Shown here piece after piece: positions 764 to 37,337 of a stretch of DNA of 38,732 nt (position 1 is the stretch's first letter; every line of letters starts with the position of its first letter). Under the pieces are notes generated by a model that saw nothing but the letters and a program-made list of their open reading frames with translations, ran no database searches and was not told where the DNA came from. The stretch covers positions 1 to 38,732 of IMG/VR virus record IMGVR_UViG_3300027782_000167; one strand, 5' to 3'. A program made the translations under genes and the position numbers. Origin of the DNA: a virus.

Positions 764-1414
764 ATGAAACTCATCACAGAAGAAATCGAAAAGGTTAAGG
801 TTATTGTCGAAGAAACCAACGGTAAAAAGTCTCTTTTTATTGAAGGTATTTTTCTTCAAGCAAATAAACCAAACAGAAACAAGCGTCTCTATGAAATGAG
901 AACTCTCGAAAGAGAAGTCAAAAGATATAATGAAAATTATATTCAAAAAGGTCGTGCTCTTGGAGAACTTGGACATCCAGATGGTCCTTCTTTAAACCTT
1001 GATAGAGTTTCTCATAAAATTGTTTGTTTAGAGAGAGTTGGAGATAATTTTAAAGGAAGAGCAAAAATTCTTTCCACTCCTATGGGAAAAATTGCAGAAT
1101 CTCTTCTTGGTGAAGGTGTGATGTTAGGAGTTTCTTCTCGTGGTGTTGGTTCATTAATTCCAACTAACGAAGGATATTCAGTAGTTGGTGAAGATTTTAT
1201 GCTTGCGACTGCTGCTGATATTGTTGCTGACCCTTCTGCTCCTGATGCTTTTGTGAACGGAATTATGGAAGGAAAGGAGTGGTGTTGGGAAGGTGGAATT
1301 CTCCGTGAAAGAGCCGCAGAAGCAGCAAAAAGAAAAATAAACACATTAGTAGACCAAAAACGTTTGGAAGAACAGAAAGTTGATCTGTTTCAGAACTTTT
1401 TATCAAATCTTTAA
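764..1414 (+). CDS. 21: Prohead core protease gp21
   Basis: T4 gp21-type prohead protease, which digests the scaffold and trims head proteins (consensus I/L-x-E) before DNA packaging. The 216-residue length fits the family. Visible features are the ELGHPDGPS segment with the probable catalytic His (H71) and the GVMLGVSSRGVGS segment with the probable nucleophilic Ser (S124 or S125). A GTG in frame at 752 would add four residues, but the ATG at 764 is preferred because AGGTGG lies at a good distance upstream, inside the end of the previous gene. It is followed by gp22 and gp23, the normal T4 order. It would process gp23 and any protein bearing a capsid-targeting peptide, so it matters for the candidates at 24460 and 25653. 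Confidence 0.93.
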   Translation: MKLITEEIEKVKVIVEETNGKKSLFIEGIFLQANKPNRNKRLYEMRTLEREVKRYNENYIQKGRALGELGHPDGPSLNLDRVSHKIVCLERVGDNFKGRAKILSTPMGKIAESLLGEGVMLGVSSRGVGSLIPTNEGYSVVGEDFMLATAADIVADPSAPDAFVNGIMEGKEWCWEGGILRERAAEAAKRKINTLVDQKRLEEQKVDLFQNFLSNL

Positions 1415-2734: not shown

Positions 2735-4171
2735 ATGCAAATGTTCAACGCAGAACATCTGCAGGAGAAGTGGGCACCACTCCTTGACTATCAGGGACTT
2801 GATGGAATCAAAGATTCACATCGTAGAATGGTAACCGCAGTTCTCCTGGAGAATCAAGAAAAATTCCTTCGTGAGGAAAGAGAATTCCTTGGCGAAGCAT
2901 CCTACGCATCACAATCATCAGCATCTGCTTCAGGTACTGGTTTCGCAGGTCAATCCGATAAAGGTGGTCCAGTTGCAGGTTTCGACCCTGTTCTGATCTC
3001 CCTGATCCGTCGTTCAATGCCTAACTTGGTTGCATATGACCTCGCAGGTGTTCAACCAATGAACGGTCCTACAGGACTTATCTTTGCAATGCGTTCACGT
3101 TATGTTGATCAAAATGGTGCTGAAGCATTCTTCAACGAACCAGATACTCAGTTCTCTGGTAGAGATGGCGCTCAAGGTTTCTATAACGTAGATCCTGCTA
3201 TTCAAGGTGGTGTAGGTTTCGGTACTACCGCAACTCAAACTGGTAACAACCCTGGTCTTCTTAGTGCTGGTGGTACTTCAACCGATTATAATGTCGGTCA
3301 AGGTATGGGAACATTTGAAGCAGAAAGACTTGGTACATCTGGTCAAGAAAGCTTCAACGAAATGGCATTCTCAATCGAGAAAGTCACCGTTACTGCAAAG
3401 TCAAGAGCACTCAAGGCTGAGTACTCACTTGAGCTCGCACAAGACCTCAAGGCAATTCATGGTTTGAATGCAGAAGCGGAATTAGCAAACATTCTCTCAA
3501 CAGAGATTCTTGCTGAAATCAACCGTGAAGTTATTCGTACCATCTACAAGACTGCTGAAACTGGTGCTCAGTTAAATACTGCTACTGCTGGTGTTTTTGA
3601 CCTTGATGTTGACTCTAATGGTCGTTGGTCAGTTGAGAAGTTCAAAGGTCTTATCTTCCAAATCGAGCGTGATGCTAACGCAATCGCACAAAGAACTCGT
3701 CGCGGAAAGGGCAACATCATTATGTGTTCTTCGGACGTTGCTTCTGCACTTTCGATGGCTGGTCTTCTTGACTACACCCCTGCACTTAATGCAAACCTTA
3801 ACGTAGATGATACTGGCAATACTTTTGCTGGTGTTCTCAACGGTAAGTATAAAGTTTACATCGACCCATATTCGGGTGGTGCTGGTAACGTATCTGGTAC
3901 AACCAATAGCCAATACTACGTTGTTGGTTATAAGGGTTCTTCCCCTTATGATGCAGGTCTGTTCTATTGTCCTTATGTTCCTCTCCAAATGGTTCGTGCC
4001 GTTGGTGAGAACACCTTCCAACCAAAAATTGGATTCAAGACCCGTTATGGTCTTGTTGCTAACCCATTTGCTGAAGGAGCTCTTGCTAGTGGTGCTGCCA
4101 ATACACTTGGTCGCATTCAACAGAACTCAAACCGTTACTACAGAAGAGTACAAGTACAAAACCTTATGTGA
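2735..4171 (+). CDS. 23: Major capsid protein gp23
   Basis: HK97-fold hexamer protein of the head, 478 residues. Family segments seen are SMPNLVAYDLAGVQPMNGPT (about residues 91-110), the AKSRALKAEYSLELAQDL helix, LANILSTEILAEINREV, and the C-terminal FQPKIGFKTRYGLVANPFAE. The likely gp21 cleavage site is in REFLGE|ASYA after Glu54 (L-x-E followed by Ala), matching the T4 propeptide site by position and sequence. The start has an AAAGAGG Shine-Dalgarno 8 bases upstream. C-rich codon choices (TTC, AAC, GGT) contrast with the AT-rich neighbours, as expected of the most highly expressed late gene. A strong terminator follows. Confidence 0.97.
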   Translation: MQMFNAEHLQEKWAPLLDYQGLDGIKDSHRRMVTAVLLENQEKFLREEREFLGEASYASQSSASASGTGFAGQSDKGGPVAGFDPVLISLIRRSMPNLVAYDLAGVQPMNGPTGLIFAMRSRYVDQNGAEAFFNEPDTQFSGRDGAQGFYNVDPAIQGGVGFGTTATQTGNNPGLLSAGGTSTDYNVGQGMGTFEAERLGTSGQESFNEMAFSIEKVTVTAKSRALKAEYSLELAQDLKAIHGLNAEAELANILSTEILAEINREVIRTIYKTAETGAQLNTATAGVFDLDVDSNGRWSVEKFKGLIFQIERDANAIAQRTRRGKGNIIMCSSDVASALSMAGLLDYTPALNANLNVDDTGNTFAGVLNGKYKVYIDPYSGGAGNVSGTTNSQYYVVGYKGSSPYDAGLFYCPYVPLQMVRAVGENTFQPKIGFKTRYGLVANPFAEGALASGAANTLGRIQQNSNRYYRRVQVQNLM

Positions 4172-16234: not shown

Positions 16235-16436
16235 AATTCAAGAAGTAGTAGTTGATTTTGGAGAACCAAATTGTAGATTAGTAAAACCATATTTGATTTC
16301 TGATGATGGAAGTCTTTCTCCTTGGTTAAAGGGAATTACAAATGACGAAGAAATTATGATGAGTTCAGATAAGATTTTAACTCTTGTTGAACCCACAAAA
16401 GAACTACTTAATGAATATACTGAACTTACAAAATGA
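16113..16436 (+). CDS. Small conserved protein, Sm-like family candidate (paralogue 3 of 3)
   Basis: A 107-residue protein read in a second frame over the end of the previous gene. GAGGAGAG just upstream supports the ATG at 16113. The N-terminal 25 residues are Met/Glu/Pro-rich; then comes TQVLILMNQLNLITEI, a VKPYLISDD segment, LSPWLKGI and KILTLVEPTKELLNEY, matching the family order of the two paralogues (SGE is lost). Tandem placement with 15809 points to duplication. It ends inside gp43 by ATGA, so it is translated with the polymerase. Confidence 0.68.
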   Translation: MEEEITMSMDQMMEEPSEEPMISDPITQVLILMNQLNLITEIQEVVVDFGEPNCRLVKPYLISDDGSLSPWLKGITNDEEIMMSSDKILTLVEPTKELLNEYTELTK

Positions 16437-17908
16437 GATTTTATACCAACGTCTATGAAAAATTTAATAAAATGTTGGTTCGTGGTTATGAAGACGGTAG
16501 GTATTTTCAGTCAGAAGAAGAGTTTCAACCAACTCTTTATGTGACTTCTAAAAAACAAAGTAAGTATAAAACTCTTGATGGGTCGAGTGTTGAACCAATT
16601 CAACCTGGAAAGATTTCTGATTGTAAGGAGTTTTTAAAGAAATATGAAAATGTAGAAGGATTTACTGTTTATGGTAATGATAATTACAAAGCACAATATA
16701 TTTCTCAAACATATCCAGAGGATGAAATTAAGTTTGATATTAAAAAGATTCGTCTTGTAACAATCGACATTGAGGTTGCATCCGAGAATGGATTCCCAAA
16801 TGTATTTGATTGTGCCGAAGAACTTCTAGCAATAACCTTACAAAATTACGCAACAAAGCATATCATTTGCTTTGCTTCTCGTCCTTATATCAATACTCGT
16901 AAGGATGTTGTGTATGTTGAGTGTAGGGATGAGATTGATTTGATTCAGCACTTTCTCGCATTTTGGGAAAGAGAAACTCCTGATGTGATTACAGGTTGGA
17001 ACTGTGAGTTGTATGATATTCCTTATATTGCTGGAAGAATTGATAGGATTCTCGGTGAAAAGGAAGCACGTCGTCTTTCTCCTTGGGGAAATATTCGCAG
17101 AAAAGAACTTGTAATTAAAGGAAGAGAACAAATCTCTTATGAAGTTGCTGGGGTTTCTGTGATTGATTATCTTGACCTTTATAAGAAGTTTACTTATAAA
17201 GCACAGGAATCTTATCGTCTAGACCATATCGCAAATGTGGAACTAGGTCAAAAGAAATTGGATCACTCTGAATTTGAGACCTTTAAGGATTTTTATACAA
17301 AAGACTGGCAGAAGTTTATTGATTATAATATTCGAGACGTAGAACTTGTAGACCAATTGGAAGACAAGATGAAACTTATCGAACTATGTTTTACAATGGC
17401 ATATGATGCTAAGGTTAATTTTAATGATGTGTTCTTTCAGGTAAGAACTTGGGACGCAATCATTTATAACTACTTGAAGAAAAGGAATATTGTTATTCCT
17501 CCTAAGGACCGTTCGGAAAAGAGTGATAAATTTGCGGGGGCATATGTCAAGGAACCGATTCCTGGAAAGTATGATTGGATTGTGAGTTTTGATTTAACAT
17601 CTCTATATCCTTCTCTTATTATGCAATATAATATTTCTCCAGAAACTCTTTTAGATGAAAAATATCCAGGAATAACTGTTGATAAATTACTCAACAAGGA
17701 AATTGTTATAGAAAATATTGAAGGTAAATGTGTTTCTGCTAATGGTTGTATGTATGATACAACCAAAAGAGGGATATTTCCAGAACTTGTTGAGAATATA
17801 TTTAATGATCGACAATTTTTCAAAAAGGAAATGTTGAAAGAAAAATCAAAATTAGAAGAAATTGAAAATGAGTTAAAAAAACGTGGTATTGACTTAAATA
17901 CTTTATAA
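16433..17908 (+). CDS. 43A: DNA polymerase gp43, N-terminal fragment (exonuclease plus motif A)
   Basis: Family B DNA polymerase, first part of a split gene. In 491 residues it contains Exo I TIDIEVAS (D112, E114), Exo II GWNCELYDIPY (N190, D195), Exo III YNIRD (Y298, D302) and polymerase motif A SFDLTSLYPSLIMQYN (D387). It then stops with TAA after a helix rich in Glu/Lys (EEIENELKKRGID), before motifs B and C. Those are in the frame starting at 18603. The missing half means it cannot polymerise alone; it should assemble with the C-terminal fragment. No frameshift signal is seen at its end; a late promoter for the inserted HNH gene starts right after the stop. Confidence 0.93.
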   Translation: MRFYTNVYEKFNKMLVRGYEDGRYFQSEEEFQPTLYVTSKKQSKYKTLDGSSVEPIQPGKISDCKEFLKKYENVEGFTVYGNDNYKAQYISQTYPEDEIKFDIKKIRLVTIDIEVASENGFPNVFDCAEELLAITLQNYATKHIICFASRPYINTRKDVVYVECRDEIDLIQHFLAFWERETPDVITGWNCELYDIPYIAGRIDRILGEKEARRLSPWGNIRRKELVIKGREQISYEVAGVSVIDYLDLYKKFTYKAQESYRLDHIANVELGQKKLDHSEFETFKDFYTKDWQKFIDYNIRDVELVDQLEDKMKLIELCFTMAYDAKVNFNDVFFQVRTWDAIIYNYLKKRNIVIPPKDRSEKSDKFAGAYVKEPIPGKYDWIVSFDLTSLYPSLIMQYNISPETLLDEKYPGITVDKLLNKEIVIENIEGKCVSANGCMYDTTKRGIFPELVENIFNDRQFFKKEMLKEKSKLEEIENELKKRGIDLNTL

Positions 17909-17916
17909 TATAAATA
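17909..17916 (+). promoter_or_regulatory. T4-type late promoter (TATAAATA) inside the split polymerase locus
   Basis: Exact TATAAATA immediately after the gp43A stop codon and 23 bases before the HNH start. It would also transcribe the C-terminal polymerase fragment and uvsX late in infection. Confidence 0.72.
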
Positions 17917-17938
17917 ATAAAGTGTATTGAAGTCTAAT

Positions 17939-18613
17939 ATGAATTATTTAAAAATATATTGCAAATTAGTCAAATTCACAGAAAATCGAAATTGGAAAAA
18001 AAATTATGATGGTCTTTATCTTGAGGGGCATCATATTTTTCCAATATCAATATATGGCAAAAATGATAGAATTGTCTATTTGACTGCAAGAGAACATTTT
18101 TTAGCACATTGGTTACTTTATAAAATATGTTTGAAAAGATATGGTATTAGAAATAGAAAAACATTTAATATGGGGTCTGCATTTGCTATGATGTGTGTTT
18201 CAAATGATTTGCAAGAAAGAACATATACATCTAGACAATATGAAATTGCCAGAAAATGTTTGTCTAAAATTAGGACAGGTAAAAAAAGAAATGATATGTC
18301 GGGAAAAAAATATTTTGGTGCTAATGATGAGGTCATTAAAAATGGAATAGAAAAAATGAGACAAAAAAAAATTGGAATGAAGATAGAGTATCCCAAAAAT
18401 AGAAAATCTTTACCTTGTCCTCCAGAAAAATCAAAAAAAATATCAGAAACTAGAAAAAATACAAAATTAAAATTTATTTCTATGAGTGAAAAAGAATTTA
18501 ATATTTGGATTTCTAATCAAAATCTTTACAGAAAAGATGGAGCAAAAAATTCAAATATAACAAGAGTTTTGATGTGGAGAAGTATTCCTTTGGAAAAATA
18601 TTATGGAAATTGA
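17939..18613 (+). CDS. HNH-type homing endonuclease inserted in gp43
   Basis: A 224-residue, very Lys-rich protein. EGHHIFPISIYGKNDRIVYL (H31, H32, N42) followed by TAREHFLAHWLLYK (H53, H57) is the pattern of phage HNH endonucleases of the GHHI...REH..AHWLL type. The C-terminal half has repeated K-K and S-K-K-I-S-E-T-R segments like NUMOD3 DNA-binding modules. It lies between the two polymerase fragments with its own late promoter and overlaps gp43B by 11 bases. The ATG at 17939 is preferred over a TTG at 17927. Strong A bias (AAA codons) is unlike the flanking polymerase, consistent with transfer. Confidence 0.88.
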   Translation: MNYLKIYCKLVKFTENRNWKKNYDGLYLEGHHIFPISIYGKNDRIVYLTAREHFLAHWLLYKICLKRYGIRNRKTFNMGSAFAMMCVSNDLQERTYTSRQYEIARKCLSKIRTGKKRNDMSGKKYFGANDEVIKNGIEKMRQKKIGMKIEYPKNRKSLPCPPEKSKKISETRKNTKLKFISMSEKEFNIWISNQNLYRKDGAKNSNITRVLMWRSIPLEKYYGN

Positions 18614-19712
18614 TTATTCTAAAATATCATCAGATGAGTTGAAAAAACTTCGTCAAAATTGCATAAAAAATATATCAAAATATACAAATAACCAAATGGC
18701 TAGAAAGATACAAATTAATAGTTTGTATGGTGCCATTGGAAATCAATATTTTAGGTATTATAAACTAGCAAATGCCGAAGCAATCACAATGTCTGGACAA
18801 GTTTCCATTCGTTGGATTGAATGTAAAATGAATTCATACCTAAACAAAATTCTTAAAACAAATGATGTTGATTATGTTATTGCTTCAGATACTGATTCTA
18901 TCTACCTTAATATGGGTCCTTTTGTTGAGACTGTATACAAGGGAAGAGAAAAAACTACTGAGGAAATTGTTGAGTTCCTTGATAAGGTCTGTTCGATGGA
19001 ATTTGAAAAATATATTGAGAGTTCTTACCAAGAATTGGCGGACTATGTAAACGCATACGACCAGAAGATGCAGATGAAACGGGAGAATATTGCCGACCGT
19101 GGAATCTGGACTGCCAAGAAACGATACATTTTGAATGTTTGGGATAGTGAAGGTGTTAGGTACGATGAACCTAAATTGAAGATTATGGGATTAGAAGCAG
19201 TCAAGTCTTCTACTCCTGCACCTTGTCGTCAAAAGATTAAGGATGCTCTTAAAATTGTGATGACTAAAACAGAAGACGAAATGATTGCTTTTATAGATAA
19301 CTTTCGTGAAGCATTCAATCAACTTCCCCCAGAAGAAATTTCATTTCCACGTTCAATTAATGATGTAAATAAACATAAATCTTCATCAACTCTTTATTGT
19401 AAGGGAACTCCCATTCACGCAAGAGGAGCAATTCTGTATAATCATCTAATTAAAGAAAAGAAATTGGATAAGAAGTATGCAAAGATTCAAAATGGTGAGA
19501 AGATTAAATTTTGCTATTTAAAACTTCCAAATCCAATTCGTGAGAATGTTATTTCTTATATTCAAGAATTCCCAAAGGAATTTGGACTAGACAAATACAT
19601 TGATTATGACTTACAATTCAGTAAAGCATTTTTGGAACCAATGAAAGTAATTTTGGATGCAATTAACTGGAAAGTAGAAAAAACTGTAAACTTAGAATCA
19701 TTTTTTAACTAA
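18603..19712 (+). CDS. 43B: DNA polymerase gp43, C-terminal fragment (motifs B and C, thumb)
   Basis: Second part of the split polymerase, 369 residues. It begins MEIDYSKISSDELKKLRQ, which continues the helix region lost from the first fragment, then has motif B KIQINSLYGAIGN (K35 onward), motif C ASDTDSIYLN (D96, D98), the KKRY motif AKKRYILNVW, and a thumb domain ending in the clamp-binding-like tail LESFFN. Together the two fragments total 860 residues, a full-length T4-type polymerase. Its start overlaps the HNH 3' end by 11 bases and its stop overlaps the uvsX start (TAATG). Confidence 0.93.
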   Translation: MEIDYSKISSDELKKLRQNCIKNISKYTNNQMARKIQINSLYGAIGNQYFRYYKLANAEAITMSGQVSIRWIECKMNSYLNKILKTNDVDYVIASDTDSIYLNMGPFVETVYKGREKTTEEIVEFLDKVCSMEFEKYIESSYQELADYVNAYDQKMQMKRENIADRGIWTAKKRYILNVWDSEGVRYDEPKLKIMGLEAVKSSTPAPCRQKIKDALKIVMTKTEDEMIAFIDNFREAFNQLPPEEISFPRSINDVNKHKSSSTLYCKGTPIHARGAILYNHLIKEKKLDKKYAKIQNGEKIKFCYLKLPNPIRENVISYIQEFPKEFGLDKYIDYDLQFSKAFLEPMKVILDAINWKVEKTVNLESFFN

Positions 19713-24433: not shown

Positions 24434-24441
24434 TATAAATA
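24434..24441 (+). promoter_or_regulatory. T4-type late promoter (TATAAATA) for the nucleotidyltransferase fusion
   Basis: Exact TATAAATA in the 28-base gap, 18 bases before the ATG; the leader has no Shine-Dalgarno sequence. It places the two following proteins in the late (virion) class. Confidence 0.78.
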
Positions 24442-24459
24442 ACTAAAAATATCATATAA

Positions 24460-25647
24460 ATGAAAAGTTTTGCTAGATTTATTAAAGAAGCAGTAGAAAC
24501 ACTTGCGTCTACTGAGGCAAAGAATCGCGGACTTAAAGGAGATGGTCATGGTGATTGGTATGATAGTCAGGGAAATCTTGTAGCAAAAACTGTAGGTGGA
24601 AAGTTAAAATATTTCGGTCAAGGTGGTGCTGATGCTCAACAGCAACAAGGAGCAAAGAAACAAGCAGGAGCACAACAGCAGGCAGCACCACAACAACAAG
24701 CAGCACAGCAACAGCAACCAGAAGCAGAGCAGGTTAATGGTGTTGCGATTGTGATTGGAAGATTTAATCCTCCATCTAAAAATCACGGAGCATTATTGAA
24801 AGCAGGATATTCACAAGCAACTAGAAGAGGATTTGAGTTTAGAGTTTATCCAAGTCGTATTGAGGATGGAGCAACAAATCCACTCAATCCAGGATTAAAG
24901 ATTTCTTATATACAATCTATGTTCCCAGAGTATGCGGAATATATTGTAGATAGTGATAAAACAAAAACTATTTTTGATGTTTTGGGTTCTGTGTATGATG
25001 ATGGTTATACTGATGTTGTTATTGTAACGGGACAAGACAGACTTGGTGAATTTCAAAGTTTAGTTCATAAAGGAGACGGACAACAATATCAGTTCAATAA
25101 TATTGAGGTAGTTCCATCTGGAGTAAAAGACCCTGATAGTGATGTTGAAAATCCTGGTTCTTCTGCGATGATGAGAACAGCAGCAGCAATGGGAGACTAT
25201 GAAAGATTTGCTACTGGTCTTCCGGCAAATATGGATACCGCAGAGAAACAGGAAATGTTTAATACCGTTTCTCGTTCGATGAAAGTAAGTGAAGATACTG
25301 AGATTTGGAAGATTGCTCCAGAAATGGATTATGAGGGAATGAGATGGAATTATAAGAAGAATGGATTATTTGATGTTGGTGCTTTGGTAGAAAATTTAAA
25401 TAGTGGATTGGTTGGAAGAATTCTTCGTAGGGGAGCAAATCATTTAATTTGTGTAACGAAAGAAGGTGTGATGTTTAAGAGTTGGTTGAAAGATTTGAGA
25501 GAAGTACAAGAGATTGGAACTTGTGCTTATAGAGCACACGCACAATCAACCACACCAGGGCAACCAGTGGTTTCGTATACTGATGTTGAAATTAAACCAA
25601 CTGTACCAAAGAAAAACATAAATACAAGTAAGAAAAGAAGTATCTAA
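24460..25647 (+). CDS. Nucleotidyltransferase fusion with capsid-targeting-like N-terminus
   Basis: 395 residues in four parts. Residues 1-11 (MKSFARFIKEA) match the T4 internal-protein targeting peptide MKTYQEFIAEA in spacing and in the I-x-E|A cleavage site. Residues 12-58 hold a GDGHGDWYDSQG segment. Residues 59-87 are a Gln/Ala-rich linker. Residues 93-250 are a cytidylyltransferase/NMNAT-type domain: VAIVIGRFNPPSKNHG (G100, H109), VVIVTGQDR, and the SSAMMR motif (S234, R239) corresponding to the family's IS.T..R. The rest (250-395) is unrecognised, with a basic end. It would transfer a nucleotide to a phosphate-bearing substrate such as NMN; the real substrate is not visible. Late promoter upstream. 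Confidence 0.82.
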   Translation: MKSFARFIKEAVETLASTEAKNRGLKGDGHGDWYDSQGNLVAKTVGGKLKYFGQGGADAQQQQGAKKQAGAQQQAAPQQQAAQQQQPEAEQVNGVAIVIGRFNPPSKNHGALLKAGYSQATRRGFEFRVYPSRIEDGATNPLNPGLKISYIQSMFPEYAEYIVDSDKTKTIFDVLGSVYDDGYTDVVIVTGQDRLGEFQSLVHKGDGQQYQFNNIEVVPSGVKDPDSDVENPGSSAMMRTAAAMGDYERFATGLPANMDTAEKQEMFNTVSRSMKVSEDTEIWKIAPEMDYEGMRWNYKKNGLFDVGALVENLNSGLVGRILRRGANHLICVTKEGVMFKSWLKDLREVQEIGTCAYRAHAQSTTPGQPVVSYTDVEIKPTVPKKNINTSKKRSI

Positions 25648-25652
25648 GCAAA

Positions 25653-27212
25653 ATGAGACCTTGGAACGAAATTATTACAGAAGCAAGAGATAAAAATAAA
25701 GAAAAGGCAGAAAGACAAAGAAGATTGGGAATTGCTAAGACCAACCTCAAAGGTTCTGGTGCTTTGAAAAAAGCACAAGGAAAAAGAAAGAGTAGATTGA
25801 CTCCAGACGAGCTAAAATTAAGAGAAAGAGATGTAAAAGTAAGAGAAAGACGCCAAGATACAAGAGAAAAAGAAAATGAAAGAAAAGATATACATTCCAA
25901 GTGGGTTATAGGACAAGCTACAAAAAATGCTGAGGAAAGAAAAAAGAAGCAATTAAAAGATATTAAAGATAGTCCAAGAAAAGCTGCGAGTGCTGCTCTT
26001 TCTAGTATCAGTAAACCACAATCAATATCATATAAAGATAGTGATGCGACTGCTTATACAAAGGCAATTGGAAATGCAGCATCTCTTGCTGGTGGAGTTG
26101 CGAAAGCAGGAATTCATTATCTTGTAGCAAAACATAAAGCAAAAAAAGCAGCAGCAGAACTAGAAAAGAAAGATGGGGCAAGTAAAACACCAGAGAATAA
26201 AAATGTTCCTTTAGGTAAAAAACAAAAAACACCAGCACCTTCTTCTGGAGTAAGAACACCAGCACCATATTCCAATCGTTATGGTAAAACACCAAAACCA
26301 ACAAATCAGATTTCTGGAACACCAGAGAGACCAAAACTTTCTCCTGCTAGACCAAAAAGACTTCCTCCCTCTGGACCAAAAAGACTTCCACCTTCTGGTG
26401 TAACACCACCTTCTTCTGGTGCTGGTAAATCATTAGGACAACAAGCAAGAGAAAACCCAGAACTCAAAAAGAAAATGATTTCTCAACGCAATCAAACAGA
26501 AGAATACTCAAATTGGAAAGAAGAGTTTATTATTGAAGTTGACGATAAAACTGATAATAAAAAAGAAAAGAAAAAAATTATTGATGTGATGCGTGGTAAA
26601 AATAAAGTTGAACTCAACCCAAATATGAAAGAGGAAAAAGACGAAGAAGGTGGAATGGCTCATAATGAACTTGCTACGATGGAAAGAGCAGTCAAAACTC
26701 TTCGTAAGAAAATAAAATCTCCAAATCAACAACTTCCTGCTTGGGTTCAGTCTAAAATCTCAAAAGCAGTAGACCATATTGATAGTGTTGCTGATTATAT
26801 GTCTGGTGAAACTGAACCTGTTACAGAAGAATGTGGTTGTGAGGATGATAAAAAAAAAGTTCTTGCGATGATGATTATTAAAAAAGCAGTAGACGCAAAG
26901 AAGAAAAAGAACTTTCAATTGAATTCGGGAATTATTGGTGAAGCAAAATCTGCTGCTTGGCAAAGAAAAGAAGGAAAGAACCCAGAAGGTGGTCTAAACA
27001 AAAAGGGGATTGCTTCTTATCGTAGAGAAAATCCTGGTTCAAAACTCTCTCTTGCTGTGACTACTCCACCATCAAAACTTGACCCTGATAGCAAATCAGC
27101 AAAACGTAGAAAGTCTTTCTGTGCTCGTATGGGAGGAATGCCTGGTCCTATGAAAGATGAAAAGGGAAGACCAACAAGAAAGGCACTTTCATTAAGAAAA
27201 TGGAACTGCTGA
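25653..27212 (+). CDS. Basic protein with CTS-like N-terminus and DUF6321-like C-terminus
   Basis: 519 residues, strongly Lys/Arg-rich, starting 5 bases after the nucleotidyltransferase gene. Residues 1-11 (MRPWNEIITEA) again fit M(K/R)x(F/W/Y)xx(F/I)IxE|A. There follow a charged coiled-coil region, a Pro-rich section with a repeated PKRLPPSG, an internal WKEEFIIE segment, a QLPAWVQSKISKAVDHID helix seen in phage virion-type proteins, a Cys motif ECGCE, and a C-terminal block AAWQRKEGKNPEGGLNKKG ... KRRKSFCARMGGMPGP ... LRKWNC that I associate with DUF6321. DNA-binding or head-internal location is inferred from charge and the N-terminus. Confidence 0.78.
   Translation: MRPWNEIITEARDKNKEKAERQRRLGIAKTNLKGSGALKKAQGKRKSRLTPDELKLRERDVKVRERRQDTREKENERKDIHSKWVIGQATKNAEERKKKQLKDIKDSPRKAASAALSSISKPQSISYKDSDATAYTKAIGNAASLAGGVAKAGIHYLVAKHKAKKAAAELEKKDGASKTPENKNVPLGKKQKTPAPSSGVRTPAPYSNRYGKTPKPTNQISGTPERPKLSPARPKRLPPSGPKRLPPSGVTPPSSGAGKSLGQQARENPELKKKMISQRNQTEEYSNWKEEFIIEVDDKTDNKKEKKKIIDVMRGKNKVELNPNMKEEKDEEGGMAHNELATMERAVKTLRKKIKSPNQQLPAWVQSKISKAVDHIDSVADYMSGETEPVTEECGCEDDKKKVLAMMIIKKAVDAKKKKNFQLNSGIIGEAKSAAWQRKEGKNPEGGLNKKGIASYRRENPGSKLSLAVTTPPSKLDPDSKSAKRRKSFCARMGGMPGPMKDEKGRPTRKALSLRKWNC
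26352..26399 (+). repeat. 24-base imperfect tandem repeat encoding PKRLPPSG twice
   Basis: Two 24-base units (ccaaaaagacttcc followed by tccctctgga or accttctggt) lie in the Pro-rich part of the coding region; they differ at a few bases. Confidence 0.75.
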
Positions 27213-33872: not shown

Positions 33873-35495
33873 ATGTCTGGAATTTCTAAGTTCAAGAGAA
33901 TTTATAGTGAAGGTGTTGCGGCAGAACATCCAGATGTTGCGGGGCAGAAAGAATTTGCGAATAGGGCAGATGCCGAAATTACTCGTAGAAGAAAAGAAAG
34001 AGCAAAAAAGGGTGGACCACAACTTCCTGGTTTTGTTCCGTCAGTAAAGAAAGAGGAAGTAGAACTTGATGAAAAGATTGATGTGGGTGCTGATGCTGGT
34101 GCGACAATCAGTGATTTCGTCCATTCAAAGAGTGCTACATTCAAAGGTGATAGTAAGAAGCAAAGAATTAAGAGAGCACTTGGTGCTTATTATGCGGCAC
34201 AAAAAGAAGAAACAGAAAACATTTATAATTATGTAATTGAAGCATTAGTTGATGCTGATTTCGCACAAGATTATGAGACTGCTGAAAATATGTTTGAGTG
34301 TATGAGTGATGAATTCGTAGCAGTTATCCTTGAAGATTATATTGAAGAGAAAGCAAGAGGAACTAGACCAAAGAAAACAATTCACGCATATGATGTAGAT
34401 GAGACCTTATTTGGTCACGGCAAGAAAGGCAAACCAAATGTTCAGGTTCATGTAAAGGACGCATCTGGGAAAAGAATTCAAAGTTTGAGTAATCAAGAGT
34501 TTAATACTCATAAACTTGATAAAGATAAGGGACATTCTTATGATTTTAGTGAATTCCAAAGTGCTAAAACTTTCTCAAAAACTTCTACTCCAAACAAAAA
34601 AATAATTAAAGATGTTAAGAGAAAACAAGCAAGGGGACAAAACGTTCATATAATTACTGCTCGTTCTAAATTTGATAAACCAAGTGAATTCCAAGGACAC
34701 TTGAAGAAGCACGGTGTTGATGTTCCTATGAATAAAATTCATTATACTGGTGGAATGAAAGGTAGTGATGTTGGGAAGAAAAAAGTAGATACGGCAAAAG
34801 GAATTGCAAAGCAGAGTGGTGCTAAGACAACTCATATGTATGATGATGCTGCAAAAGTTAATAATGCATTTGAGAAAGAGAAACAAAACAACCCAACTTC
34901 TACAAAAATTAAAACTCACTTAGCAAAACCAAATGCATCTGGTGAGACGACACTTCGTTCTTATCAAGCAACAAAAGGTGGAAGAACTAGTGATAATACA
35001 CCATCAACTACAAAACAAACACAAAGAGCACGTAAAAAAGCAAGAAAGAATATGGGAGAAGAAGTATCTTCTTATGAATACTGGAAACAGTTTGTAGGAG
35101 AAGCTGCTTATACTGGTGGTCCAGTTGGAAGAAGTGAAATGATTGCTTCAAATAATGAAAGAGCAAAACAATCTTCAACGTCTTCATCTCCAACATCAAC
35201 TACTACTAGACCTGGAACAACACCAACATCAACTACTACTAGACCTGGAACAACACCAAAACCTCAATCATCAACTGGTGGTCTTTTGGGTTCATTAGAT
35301 AAACTTGCTAGAGATACTGCTGGTAAAGTTGGAGAAAAAATAGGAAGAAATAAAACTGGAAATATTCCTATTATTAGTGATATTGGTGGTGCTGTTGGTA
35401 GACAGAAAGGTACGGATATGTATGATAAGGTTACTGCTCCTTTTAGAAAGGAAGAAGTGTCTTCTTATGAGTACTGGAAACAGTTTGTTGATTGA
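33873..35495 (+). CDS. HAD-family phosphatase fusion protein with CTS-like internal segments
   Basis: 540 residues. Residues 1-60 are basic (MSGISKFKRIYSEG). Residues about 60-112 hold a block (TISDFVHSKSATFKGDSKKQ, RALGAYYAAQ) I associate with cyanophage virion proteins. At 118-158 lies a helical module ending MSDEFVAVILED. Residues 169-345 are a HAD domain: YDVDETLF (D174, D176), IITARSKF (T262), a Lys near 303, and MYDDAAK (D324, D325). The tail is basic and Ser/Thr/Pro-rich, with SYEYWKQFVGEA (401-412) and an ending in SYEYWKQFVD. The open frame reaches back to 33825, but the ATG at 33873 lies properly after the promoter. Substrate unknown. Confidence 0.82.
   Translation: MSGISKFKRIYSEGVAAEHPDVAGQKEFANRADAEITRRRKERAKKGGPQLPGFVPSVKKEEVELDEKIDVGADAGATISDFVHSKSATFKGDSKKQRIKRALGAYYAAQKEETENIYNYVIEALVDADFAQDYETAENMFECMSDEFVAVILEDYIEEKARGTRPKKTIHAYDVDETLFGHGKKGKPNVQVHVKDASGKRIQSLSNQEFNTHKLDKDKGHSYDFSEFQSAKTFSKTSTPNKKIIKDVKRKQARGQNVHIITARSKFDKPSEFQGHLKKHGVDVPMNKIHYTGGMKGSDVGKKKVDTAKGIAKQSGAKTTHMYDDAAKVNNAFEKEKQNNPTSTKIKTHLAKPNASGETTLRSYQATKGGRTSDNTPSTTKQTQRARKKARKNMGEEVSSYEYWKQFVGEAAYTGGPVGRSEMIASNNERAKQSSTSSSPTSTTTRPGTTPTSTTTRPGTTPKPQSSTGGLLGSLDKLARDTAGKVGEKIGRNKTGNIPIISDIGGAVGRQKGTDMYDKVTAPFRKEEVSSYEYWKQFVD
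35060..35092 (+). repeat. First copy of a repeated coding segment (EEVSSYEYWKQFV)
   Basis: This stretch and 35454-35488, at the end of the same gene, are nearly identical in DNA (gaagtatcttcttatgaata versus gaagtgtcttcttatgagta, then the shared ctggaaacagtttg). They encode the same 13 residues; the second copy ends the protein. Confidence 0.8.
35190..35255 (+). repeat. Perfect 33-base tandem duplication in the HAD-fusion gene
   Basis: Two identical 33-base units beginning ccaacatcaactactac encode the repeated PTSTTTRPGTT linker. Being identical in DNA, the duplication is recent. Confidence 0.85.
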
Positions 35496-35549: not shown

Positions 35550-37337
35550 ATGAATAAAAAAGATTTAGACGCATTGAACGAGTTATATTCAAGTGTTTAT
35601 AGTGATCCTGAGCAGTTGAATGAATATGCTGGTAGTAATTCCACCAGCCCAAATGCACAGGATTTATCCAACCAAAGACAGGCCACCCTAAAAAGAACTG
35701 GTGGTGTTTTAGGTGCTGGTGGTGGTCAAGCTGCTATGAAGGCTTTGCAAGCAAAAGGTGTTTCTCCTAGATCTGCATATGCTCAAGTTTATTCTCAAGG
35801 TGAAAAGAATTTGGATAATCCAAAACCTGCAGTAGCTAAACCTGCAGTACCTAAACCTGCAGTACCTAAACCTGCAGTAACACCAGCAGCATCTACAACA
35901 AGACCAGCATCAGCACCCGCAACAAGACCAACAGCATCTACATCACCAGGAACACCCAAAGTTGCTCCAACAAAACCAACAGGTTCTCCAATGGACCAAT
36001 GGAGAGCAGCAAATCCAAAACTTGCTGCTGCGGCAGATGAAAAAGCAAGAATTCGTGGAACTCAACAGACTGATAATCCTTTAATGAAGGATATGAGGTC
36101 AAAACTTCCAATGAACTCTCCTTCAGTTCAGTCTCCAGCAGTTGCTAAACTTGGTGCAGGTAATCAAAGTTTAGTTAACAATCCAAATGCAATTAAAGCA
36201 GCACCACCCAAACCAGCAGCACCAACACCATCTCCAGCACCTGCTCGTAATGGTTTTGGTGCTTCTACTGCACCAATGGCTGCTAAATCCAGTGTTTCGT
36301 CAGCAACTGCACCAGCAAAACCAGCAAAACCAACAGAAGCACCAAAAAGAGAAACTCAATTATTCTCTTACCAATGGCCTTCTGCAAAAACAATTAGAGA
36401 AATTGCAGGTGCTTACGCTTCAATTTACGAAGCAAAGAAAAAAGTAGACCAAGACCAAGATGGTGATAATGACTTTGCGGATGTAAGAGTTGCGAGAATG
36501 ATTGCTTCTGGTGTTCCCAAAGCAAAAGCAATTGCTATGGTGAAGGATAAGTCTTACAACGAAGAAGTTGAACTTTGGGTAAATGATCTTTTAGAAGAAG
36601 GTTATGACCTAAGTGAATATACTTGGGAAGATATGTTTGAGATTTATGAAGCAACTGCGATGGCTAAAAGAGGTTATGATGAAACCAAAATTCGTAATAA
36701 GATTGCAAAATCAACAGGTGGTGGAGAGGCTGCTGATAGAGCAACTGAATTAGAAAACAGACCAACTTTTGGAAATAAGACAAAGCAAGCATCAAGAGAA
36801 AAACTTGCAAGAACGCAGAGAGGTGATTTCCGCAGAACAACTTCTTCTGATTATGGTCTTCGTTTGGGTGCTCATAAGTCTGATGACCCTGCCGTAAAAG
36901 CAAAGCAGGCAGCAAGAGGAAAGCAAAGAAGTGCTTTGACCCCTAGAGAGAAAAAGATGCTCAATAGAGAGGCATATGAAACATACGAGTTTGTAGCATC
37001 ATATCTTTTGGAAAACAACTTTGCTTCAACCGTTGATGACGCAAATGTGATTATCAACAATATGAGTGAGGGTTGGTTTGAAAGTATTATGGAAGAAAAG
37101 AAACCTCTTCCTGTTGCTAAAATGAAAAGAAGAGAAACCGAACTTCTTGGTAGTGATGAAGAACACCTTGCAGCATTGAAGACACCTATGGGTTCTCCTG
37201 AAAGAAAAAAAGCAATGAAAAACCTTGAAAAATTTGATAATATCAATACAGCAAGAACAAGTATTTCAAAAAGAGGTGGAAAAGAACCACATGCAATGCC
37301 AGAAGTAGGTAGATATAAACCAAAAGACGAAGATTGA
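35550..37337 (+). CDS. Ala/Pro/Lys-rich probable virion or head-internal protein
   Basis: 595 residues. After a short N-terminal helix (LDALNELYSSVYSD) comes a long Ala/Pro/Thr/Lys-rich disordered region to about 270, with a repeated KPAVPKPAV. The C-terminal part has an EF-hand-like loop DQDQDGDNDFAD, helical modules EVELWVNDLLEEGYDLSEY then TWEDMFEIYEA, and YEFVASYLLENNFAST ... NMSEGWFESIMEE, which resembles a module in the 33873 protein. Several I-x-E|A sites (SIYE|A, EIYE|A) could be cut by gp21. No enzyme domain seen. The basic, modular, late-class make-up suggests a head-internal or virion protein. Confidence 0.78.
   Translation: MNKKDLDALNELYSSVYSDPEQLNEYAGSNSTSPNAQDLSNQRQATLKRTGGVLGAGGGQAAMKALQAKGVSPRSAYAQVYSQGEKNLDNPKPAVAKPAVPKPAVPKPAVTPAASTTRPASAPATRPTASTSPGTPKVAPTKPTGSPMDQWRAANPKLAAAADEKARIRGTQQTDNPLMKDMRSKLPMNSPSVQSPAVAKLGAGNQSLVNNPNAIKAAPPKPAAPTPSPAPARNGFGASTAPMAAKSSVSSATAPAKPAKPTEAPKRETQLFSYQWPSAKTIREIAGAYASIYEAKKKVDQDQDGDNDFADVRVARMIASGVPKAKAIAMVKDKSYNEEVELWVNDLLEEGYDLSEYTWEDMFEIYEATAMAKRGYDETKIRNKIAKSTGGGEAADRATELENRPTFGNKTKQASREKLARTQRGDFRRTTSSDYGLRLGAHKSDDPAVKAKQAARGKQRSALTPREKKMLNREAYETYEFVASYLLENNFASTVDDANVIINNMSEGWFESIMEEKKPLPVAKMKRRETELLGSDEEHLAALKTPMGSPERKKAMKNLEKFDNINTARTSISKRGGKEPHAMPEVGRYKPKDED
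35823..35882 (+). repeat. 15-base tandem repeat, four copies, encoding KPAV(P/A)
   Basis: Four consecutive units of aaacctgcagta plus a variable triplet (gct, cct, cct, aca), each with CTGCAG. Copy-number change by slippage would lengthen the disordered linker in steps of five residues. Confidence 0.85.

Follow-up and report, generated by a model that had tools for sequence, protein, structure and literature searches.

We propose that two adjacent genes of a T4-like marine phage, ORF1 and ORF2, encode late internal head proteins of a cyanophage that are loaded into the prohead, trimmed by the gp21 protease and injected into the host, with ORF2 also cut internally, a reading that we hold with a probability of about 80%. 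The window, the whole 38.7-kb (38,732 nt) stretch of an IMG/VR record that we analysed, encodes gp21, gp22, gp23, replication genes and nrdAB, and ORF1 and ORF2 sit between mazG and primase/nrdA (Table 1). On our reading, the first ten residues of both proteins would bind the prohead core, shell assembly would enclose the core-bound proteins, and gp21 would cut after E10, leaving mature proteins with Ala11 as their first residue, which would remain with the DNA and pass into the host. The ORF1 enzyme would thereby be available before any phage gene expression, and ORF2 would be a multi-domain cargo that gp21 cuts internally, releasing a DUF6321 domain. The evidence below shows the sequence features, their conservation, a late promoter for ORF1 and, from published work, homologues in virions; from these we infer core binding, cleavage, injection and substrate.

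Table 1. Positions in the window of ORF1, ORF2, their predicted parts and the associated head genes and promoters (a slash marks a cleavage site)
Feature	Position	Strand	Evidence
T4-type late promoter TATAAATA, 26 nt upstream of ORF1	24434..24441	+	
ORF1, 395 aa, nucleotidyltransferase with capsid-targeting sequence (CTS)	24460..25647	+	phrog_395, E=1.5e-70
ORF1 CTS MKSFARFIKE, predicted gp21 cut after E10	24460..24489	+	alignments; T4 determinants (PMC9026906)
ORF1 aa 12-52, small module GDGHGDWYD	24493..24615	+	HMM matches to S-CREM2 virion Cas9-like protein and kinase
ORF1 aa 93-273, HxGH-type nucleotidyltransferase domain	24736..25278	+	AlphaFold pLDDT, PDB fold matches, invariant catalytic residues
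ORF1 aa 307-350, conserved C-terminal beta-rich domain	25378..25509	+	homologue alignment, AlphaFold
Imperfect late-promoter-like CATAAATA upstream of ORF2, inside ORF1 end	25617..25624	+	
ORF2, 519 aa, basic, multi-domain, with CTS and C-terminal DUF6321	25653..27212	+	
ORF2 CTS MRPWNEIITE, predicted cut after E10	25653..25682	+	M[RKT]xWxxxIxE in close relatives
ORF2 internal YSNWKEEFIIE, possible extra gp21-type site	26505..26537	+	weak; related sequence in S-SSM7 gp197
ORF2 aa 328-388, conserved domain phrog_32745	26634..26816	+	tagged alone by CTS at locus L229
ORF2 internal IIGE/A, predicted gp21 site freeing DUF6321	26931..26942	+	
ORF2 DUF6321 domain	26943..27209	+	Pfam E=6.9e-23
gp21 prohead protease, expected processing enzyme	764..1414	+	Pfam Peptidase_S77 E=2.4e-34; PHROG head maturation protease
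gp23 major capsid protein with FLGE/A site (E54/A55)	2735..4171	+	

N-terminal tags and late promoters

A sequence-only reading of this DNA had placed capsid-targeting peptides at the starts of both proteins, and the starts MKSFARFIKE/A and MRPWNEIITE/A were confirmed with their coordinates and lengths. Both equal the T4 CTS in length, with F4 and F7 in ORF1, W4 and I7 in ORF2, and I8 and E10 in both; mutagenesis in T4 assigned positions 4 and 7 to targeting and 8 and 10 to processing (PMC9026906). The pattern M..[FYWLIM]..[FYWLIM][ILVFM].E[AGS] matched two of the 42 window proteins, ORF1 and ORF2 only, and residue shuffles of the window proteins gave a mean of 0.0117 matches (P(≥2)=5e-5). When the P1' residue is dropped, UvsX fits as well, so the looser pattern has false positives. 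The site that the earlier reading had reported in gp23 is also present, and the gp23 proteins of S-SCSM1 and S-CREM2 carry FLAE/A and LLTE/A at nearly the same position. Targeting residues, processing residues, gp21 and head genes, and a late-promoter sequence were all found, as in T4-type internal head proteins that bear a CTS, though the ORF2 tag, kept in close relatives only, is less well supported than that of ORF1.

The two genes had further been said to follow an exact late promoter, which stood for ORF1 (TATAAATA) and not for ORF2, upstream of which we found only CATAAATA. Because ORF2 starts 5 nt after the ORF1 stop, the two are likely co-transcribed. The sequence NATAAATA occurs within 100 nt upstream of the gene in 51 of 65 distinct ORF1-homologue loci (random windows: mean 2.6, maximum 7), and late transcription of ORF1 is a prediction from promoter sequence.

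Elsewhere in the window, DNA polymerase gp43 is seemingly carried as two ORFs (16433-19712), separated by an ORF (17927-18613) for a putative homing endonuclease. The protein at 33873-35495 starts MSGISKFKRIYSEG, has TATAAATA upstream and includes a HAD/polynucleotide-kinase-like stretch (phrog_415, E=2.6e-4); its C-terminal part contains the CTS-like sequence SSYEYWKQFV twice, once with GEA after it. The protein at 35550-37337 begins MNKKDLDALNELYSSVYSDPEQLNE, and the S-SCSM1 virion protein gp89 begins alike (MDSKTFNSLSEAYAAVYSN); by their sequences, these two starts possibly represent a second N-terminal class of head tag. A PADLOC search gave no match.

Conservation of the tag in the ORF1 family

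The sequence-only reading had called for an alignment of homologues, and its outcome favours that reading: the first 11 residues are kept at the T4 CTS determinants (2, 4, 7, 8, 10 and 11), while positions 3, 5, 6 and 9 differ between homologues, as does the linker. Scored position by position, only 1, 2, 4, 7, 10 and 11 are highly conserved, with K2 at 97%, F4 at 97%, F7 at 100%, E10 at 97% and A11 at 86%, and 72 of 74 ORF1 homologues in IMG/VR are position-exact for the CTS. The processing motif [ILVFM]xE stands just ahead of the next module in all 59 distinct contexts, including lineages with altered N-termini. The homologues of RaK2 and CBB carry no tag and start straight at the catalytic domain, the HTVC008M homologue shows none either, and the S-PM2 enzyme is part of an untagged fusion with a DUF6267 protein.

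ORF1 is 39.7% identical over 365 aa to the S-SCSM1 virion protein gp91, with which it shares its position between mazG and primase-nrdA-nrdB, and the matching S-SCSM1 interval holds a series of genes with virion-protein annotations, gp91 among them. DUF6267-type proteins with a KxDG ligase-like motif occur just upstream of the nucleotidyltransferase in several phages (Syn9 gp183, S-SM1 gp189, locus L171, S-PM2 d138); in S-PM2 the two are fused (compare phrog_455), and the DUF6267-type protein of locus L171 has its own CTS. ORF1 homologues in MH107246, JN371768 and MK773491 are annotated as ribonucleotide reductase A, which is probably a copied misannotation.

Breadth of the tag in marine phages and T4

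A blind DNA-level scan of IMG/VR for MK.F..F[FLIMV].EA was compared with a decoy of the same codons in another order. The tag gave at least 124 matches, 123 of the 124 listed lying at an ORF start and preceded by no more than 30 open codons, and the decoy scan of the whole collection gave 43, five of them at ORF starts. Conservation of the motif as DNA was ruled out, since its codons vary (TTT/TTC, GAA/GAG and four Ala codons), and the tag is therefore a protein motif. Among the matches listed, the unconstrained positions drift to T4 residues, with I/L in 86% at position 8, S/T in 70% at position 3 and Q/E in 66% at position 6.

Stripped of the tag, 119 tagged proteins form at least 39 clusters without mutual similarity; those among the matches listed include nucleotidyltransferases, DUF6267 proteins, a GNAT acetyltransferase, a DPBB lytic transglycolase, a glucosaminidase, stand-alone DUF6321 proteins and many unknowns. 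A gp21-type protease was found on 14 of the 28 tested contigs of tagged genes, including all six longer than 150 kb, and on two of 19 decoy contigs. As gp21 sites are short, some matches will be uncut. In the T4 genome a looser pattern gave three matches only, ipII, ipIII and gp61.1. The last (NC_000866 18966-19130) is a 54-aa hypothetical protein that starts MKTFKEFIKE, and on this sequence it may be an unrecognised internal protein.

The ORF1 enzyme and its small module

The nucleotidyltransferase motifs that had been read in ORF1 were borne out, with GRFNPPSKNH at residues 100-109 and SSAMMR at 234-239. The family signature GRFNPP[ST]xxH agrees with the HxGH motifs (G-x-F-x-P-x-(H/T)-x-G-H and an (I)SSTxxR-like motif), with S-K-N-H replacing T-x-G-H in the window enzyme, and across 35 homologues G100, F102, N103, P104, P105, H109 and S234 are invariant and R239 is conserved in more than 90%. 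AlphaFold predicted the Rossmann-like domain at 93-273 with confidence (pLDDT mostly 80-93) and the whole chain moderately (mean pLDDT 71.7, pTM 0.50). The top Foldseek matches of the model were NaMNAT 9rpm (6e-6), NadD 8aih and PPAT 5ts2 (TMt 0.5-0.68), and NadD, PPAT and FAD synthetase folds all scored. Pfam and NCBIfam returned no family for ORF1, and a PDB sequence search with it nothing significant. In the literature, a role in NAD synthesis is what is usually guessed. From motifs and the predicted fold, ORF1 is an HxGH-type nucleotidyltransferase, with NMN or a related mononucleotide as the most likely putative substrate of adenylyl transfer.

Directly behind the ORF1 CTS lies a module of about 40 residues containing GDGHGDWYD, which an HMM also found on S-CREM2 gp12 (E=6e-10) and gp14 (1e-11), so that tag and module are common to three unrelated virion enzymes. 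S-CREM2 gp12 is a Cas9-like nuclease and gp14 an APH-like kinase, both found in virions and both bearing a CTS-type sequence; in the open frame of gp14 the module spans residues 169-207. Our guess is that the module serves as a core- or DNA-binding adaptor.

The tag might load the head with proteins that act in the core, as scaffold or in DNA compaction and are idle in the host, the enzyme domain having a structural or packaging role. ORF2 is indeed basic and of low complexity, and T4 IPIII affects head assembly (PMC9026906), but the catalytic residues of ORF1 are those found invariant in the 35 homologues, and the other tagged cargos are diverse enzymes, the SAM hydrolase, kinase and Cas9-like nuclease of S-CREM2 adding to the GNAT, lytic transglycolase and glucosaminidase above. 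We therefore consider a purely structural role rather unlikely.

ORF2 and its internal cleavage sites

In ORF2, DUF6321 (441-517) follows NSGIIGE/AKSAAWQR. The motif [ILVFM]xE lies between one and four residues ahead of the [AP]AW start in 30 of the 36 distinct DUF6321 copies that are internal (upstream-shifted control windows: mean 2.0, maximum 10), and some boundaries carry full CTS-like motifs in mid-protein, such as KTFNKFVTE/A, KSFPQFMSE/A and KTLSQFMIE/A. Many stand-alone copies start M-A-K-[ST]-[AP]-A-W, with Met at that place in 27 of 45, so the predicted ORF2 cut product AKSAAWQR corresponds to the stand-alone protein minus its Met. The simplest reading of these sequences is that the domain would be released by gp21 within the prohead. 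Virions of S-SCSM1 and S-CREM2 contain DUF6321 proteins (gp29 and gp137, respectively), and elsewhere the domain stands directly behind CTS sequences.

ORF1 could be tagged cargo and ORF2 an ordinary virion protein whose N-terminus resembles a CTS by chance. MRPWNEIITEA is less T4-like, and in distant phages other genes lie downstream of ORF1 and the ORF2-type tag is absent from them. Against this, most close relatives keep M[RKT]xWxxxIxE while the next 30 residues change, and both conserved ORF2 domains are found behind a canonical CTS elsewhere (loci L221 and L229), which makes a chance likeness unlikely. S-SCSM1 gp92 and P-SSM2 gp195, considered as ORF2 orthologues because of their position, were rejected as no similarity was found.

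With ORF2 taken as tagged cargo, we suggest, tentatively and at somewhat less than even odds, that multi-domain precursors of its kind are polyproteins within a general head-loading system of ocean T4-like phages. One short tag would serve varied effectors, and repeated tag or gp21 sites would split the modules, which the prohead protease would set free within the head, so that one gene yields several injected proteins.

Virion proteomes

The ORF1-family enzyme (T4-GC190) was detected in virions of S-SM1 in 2010 and not in those of S-PM2 (PMC3037559), and later in virions of S-SZBM1 with two peptides (PMC9146016), S-SCSM1 (PMC9602691) and S-CREM2 with three peptides (PMC10665884). All four virion-detected copies carry the CTS core, their N-termini being MKKFSAFLNEA (S-SM1), MRFRQFIIEA (S-SZBM1), MKSFLQFLKEA (S-SCSM1) and MKNFSSFLTEA (S-CREM2). 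S-CBWM1 has an NMNAT-like virion protein, which PMC10665884 cites, but the CTS pattern found no match in this phage.

A first scan of S-CREM2 with P1' specified (E then A/G/S/T/V) gave two matches, one of them a virion protein, and dropping P1' gave six, five of them virion proteins (shuffle mean 0.29; Fisher 3e-3, a value partly post hoc because P1' was relaxed after the virion N-termini had been inspected). These position-exact starts belong to the SAM hydrolase gp6, gp13, the kinase gp14, gp136 and the cytidylyltransferase gp154, all in virions, and to gp175, which is not; the Cas9-like gp12 has RFASFMAEA at an offset, residues 18-26. S-SCSM1 encodes two CTS proteins only, too few for a proteome test, of which one was detected in the virion and gp30 was not, and most of its non-structural virion proteins are without a T4-type CTS. 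The gene for gp30 (44215-44535, 106 aa, MKTFKQFMSES) lies in the structural gene cluster with a CTS-type start and is not annotated as a virion protein; a similar protein with the tag is encoded at locus L238.

Carry-over from the lysate could account for virion enzymes, as the authors of PMC10665884 and PMC9602691 noted, and the few peptides in S-CREM2 and S-SZBM1 would suit an enzyme that is abundant late and sticks to virions, its N-terminus being a family amphipathic helix and no address, but we regard this as very unlikely because the same 11 residues occur on the many unrelated clusters and on functionally unrelated S-CREM2 virion proteins, the untagged RaK2 and CBB homologues begin directly with the catalytic domain, and the conserved positions are those mapped for T4 packaging.

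Comparison with known head-loading systems

The T4 CTS and the presence of the ORF1-type enzyme in cyanophage virions are already known. Packaging of such proteins had been thought undescribed for cyanophages, which does not hold for the virion presence of the enzyme, known since Sullivan 2010 (PMC3037559), and does hold, in the open-access literature searched, for the tag itself, of which we found no description. Provisionally new are the tag as carried by ORF1 and ORF2, its breadth in marine phages, its link to virion enzymes and the conserved internal gp21-type sites, as the search for a cyanophage CTS covered open-access literature, with subscription papers mostly outside it. CTS-like basic proteins in relatives of T4 are mentioned in general terms (PMC9026906), and the literature searched held no packaging experiment for a cyanophage CTS.

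The tag offers a mechanism for the presence of cyanophage virion enzymes that have been called possible contamination, and with it the head cargo of each genome can be listed for testing, mature N-termini being predicted. A sequence rule for finding the first-minute effectors of abundant ocean viruses would also follow. As the nucleotidyltransferase belongs to the cyanophage core genes (PMC3037559), its delivery would be general in the infection of Synechococcus and Prochlorococcus.

ORF1 is a member of the cyanophage core cytidylyltransferases (T4-GC190, phrog_395, NMNAT-like virion protein), and the literature that we found on T4-GC190 treats its virion presence as unexplained and leaves the CTS unmentioned. 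SPN3US/phiKZ-type ejection proteins are likewise loaded into the head with propeptides that a prohead protease cuts (PMC5694885), but most of these propeptides exceed 100 residues, and they have no relation to the T4 CTS. T4 Alt, an injected ADP-ribosyltransferase, offers an analogy as an enzyme that is gp21-processed and delivered with the DNA (PMC9026906), though its chemistry and fold differ from those of ORF1 and no family search linked the two. The closest likeness in the tag itself is to T4 IPI, IPII and IPIII, with a position-exact N-terminal 10-mer, an (I/L)xE/A site, a gp21-type protease and, as predicted from promoter sequence, late transcription in common; the cargo bodies are unrelated, and here they are an enzyme and a multi-domain protein.
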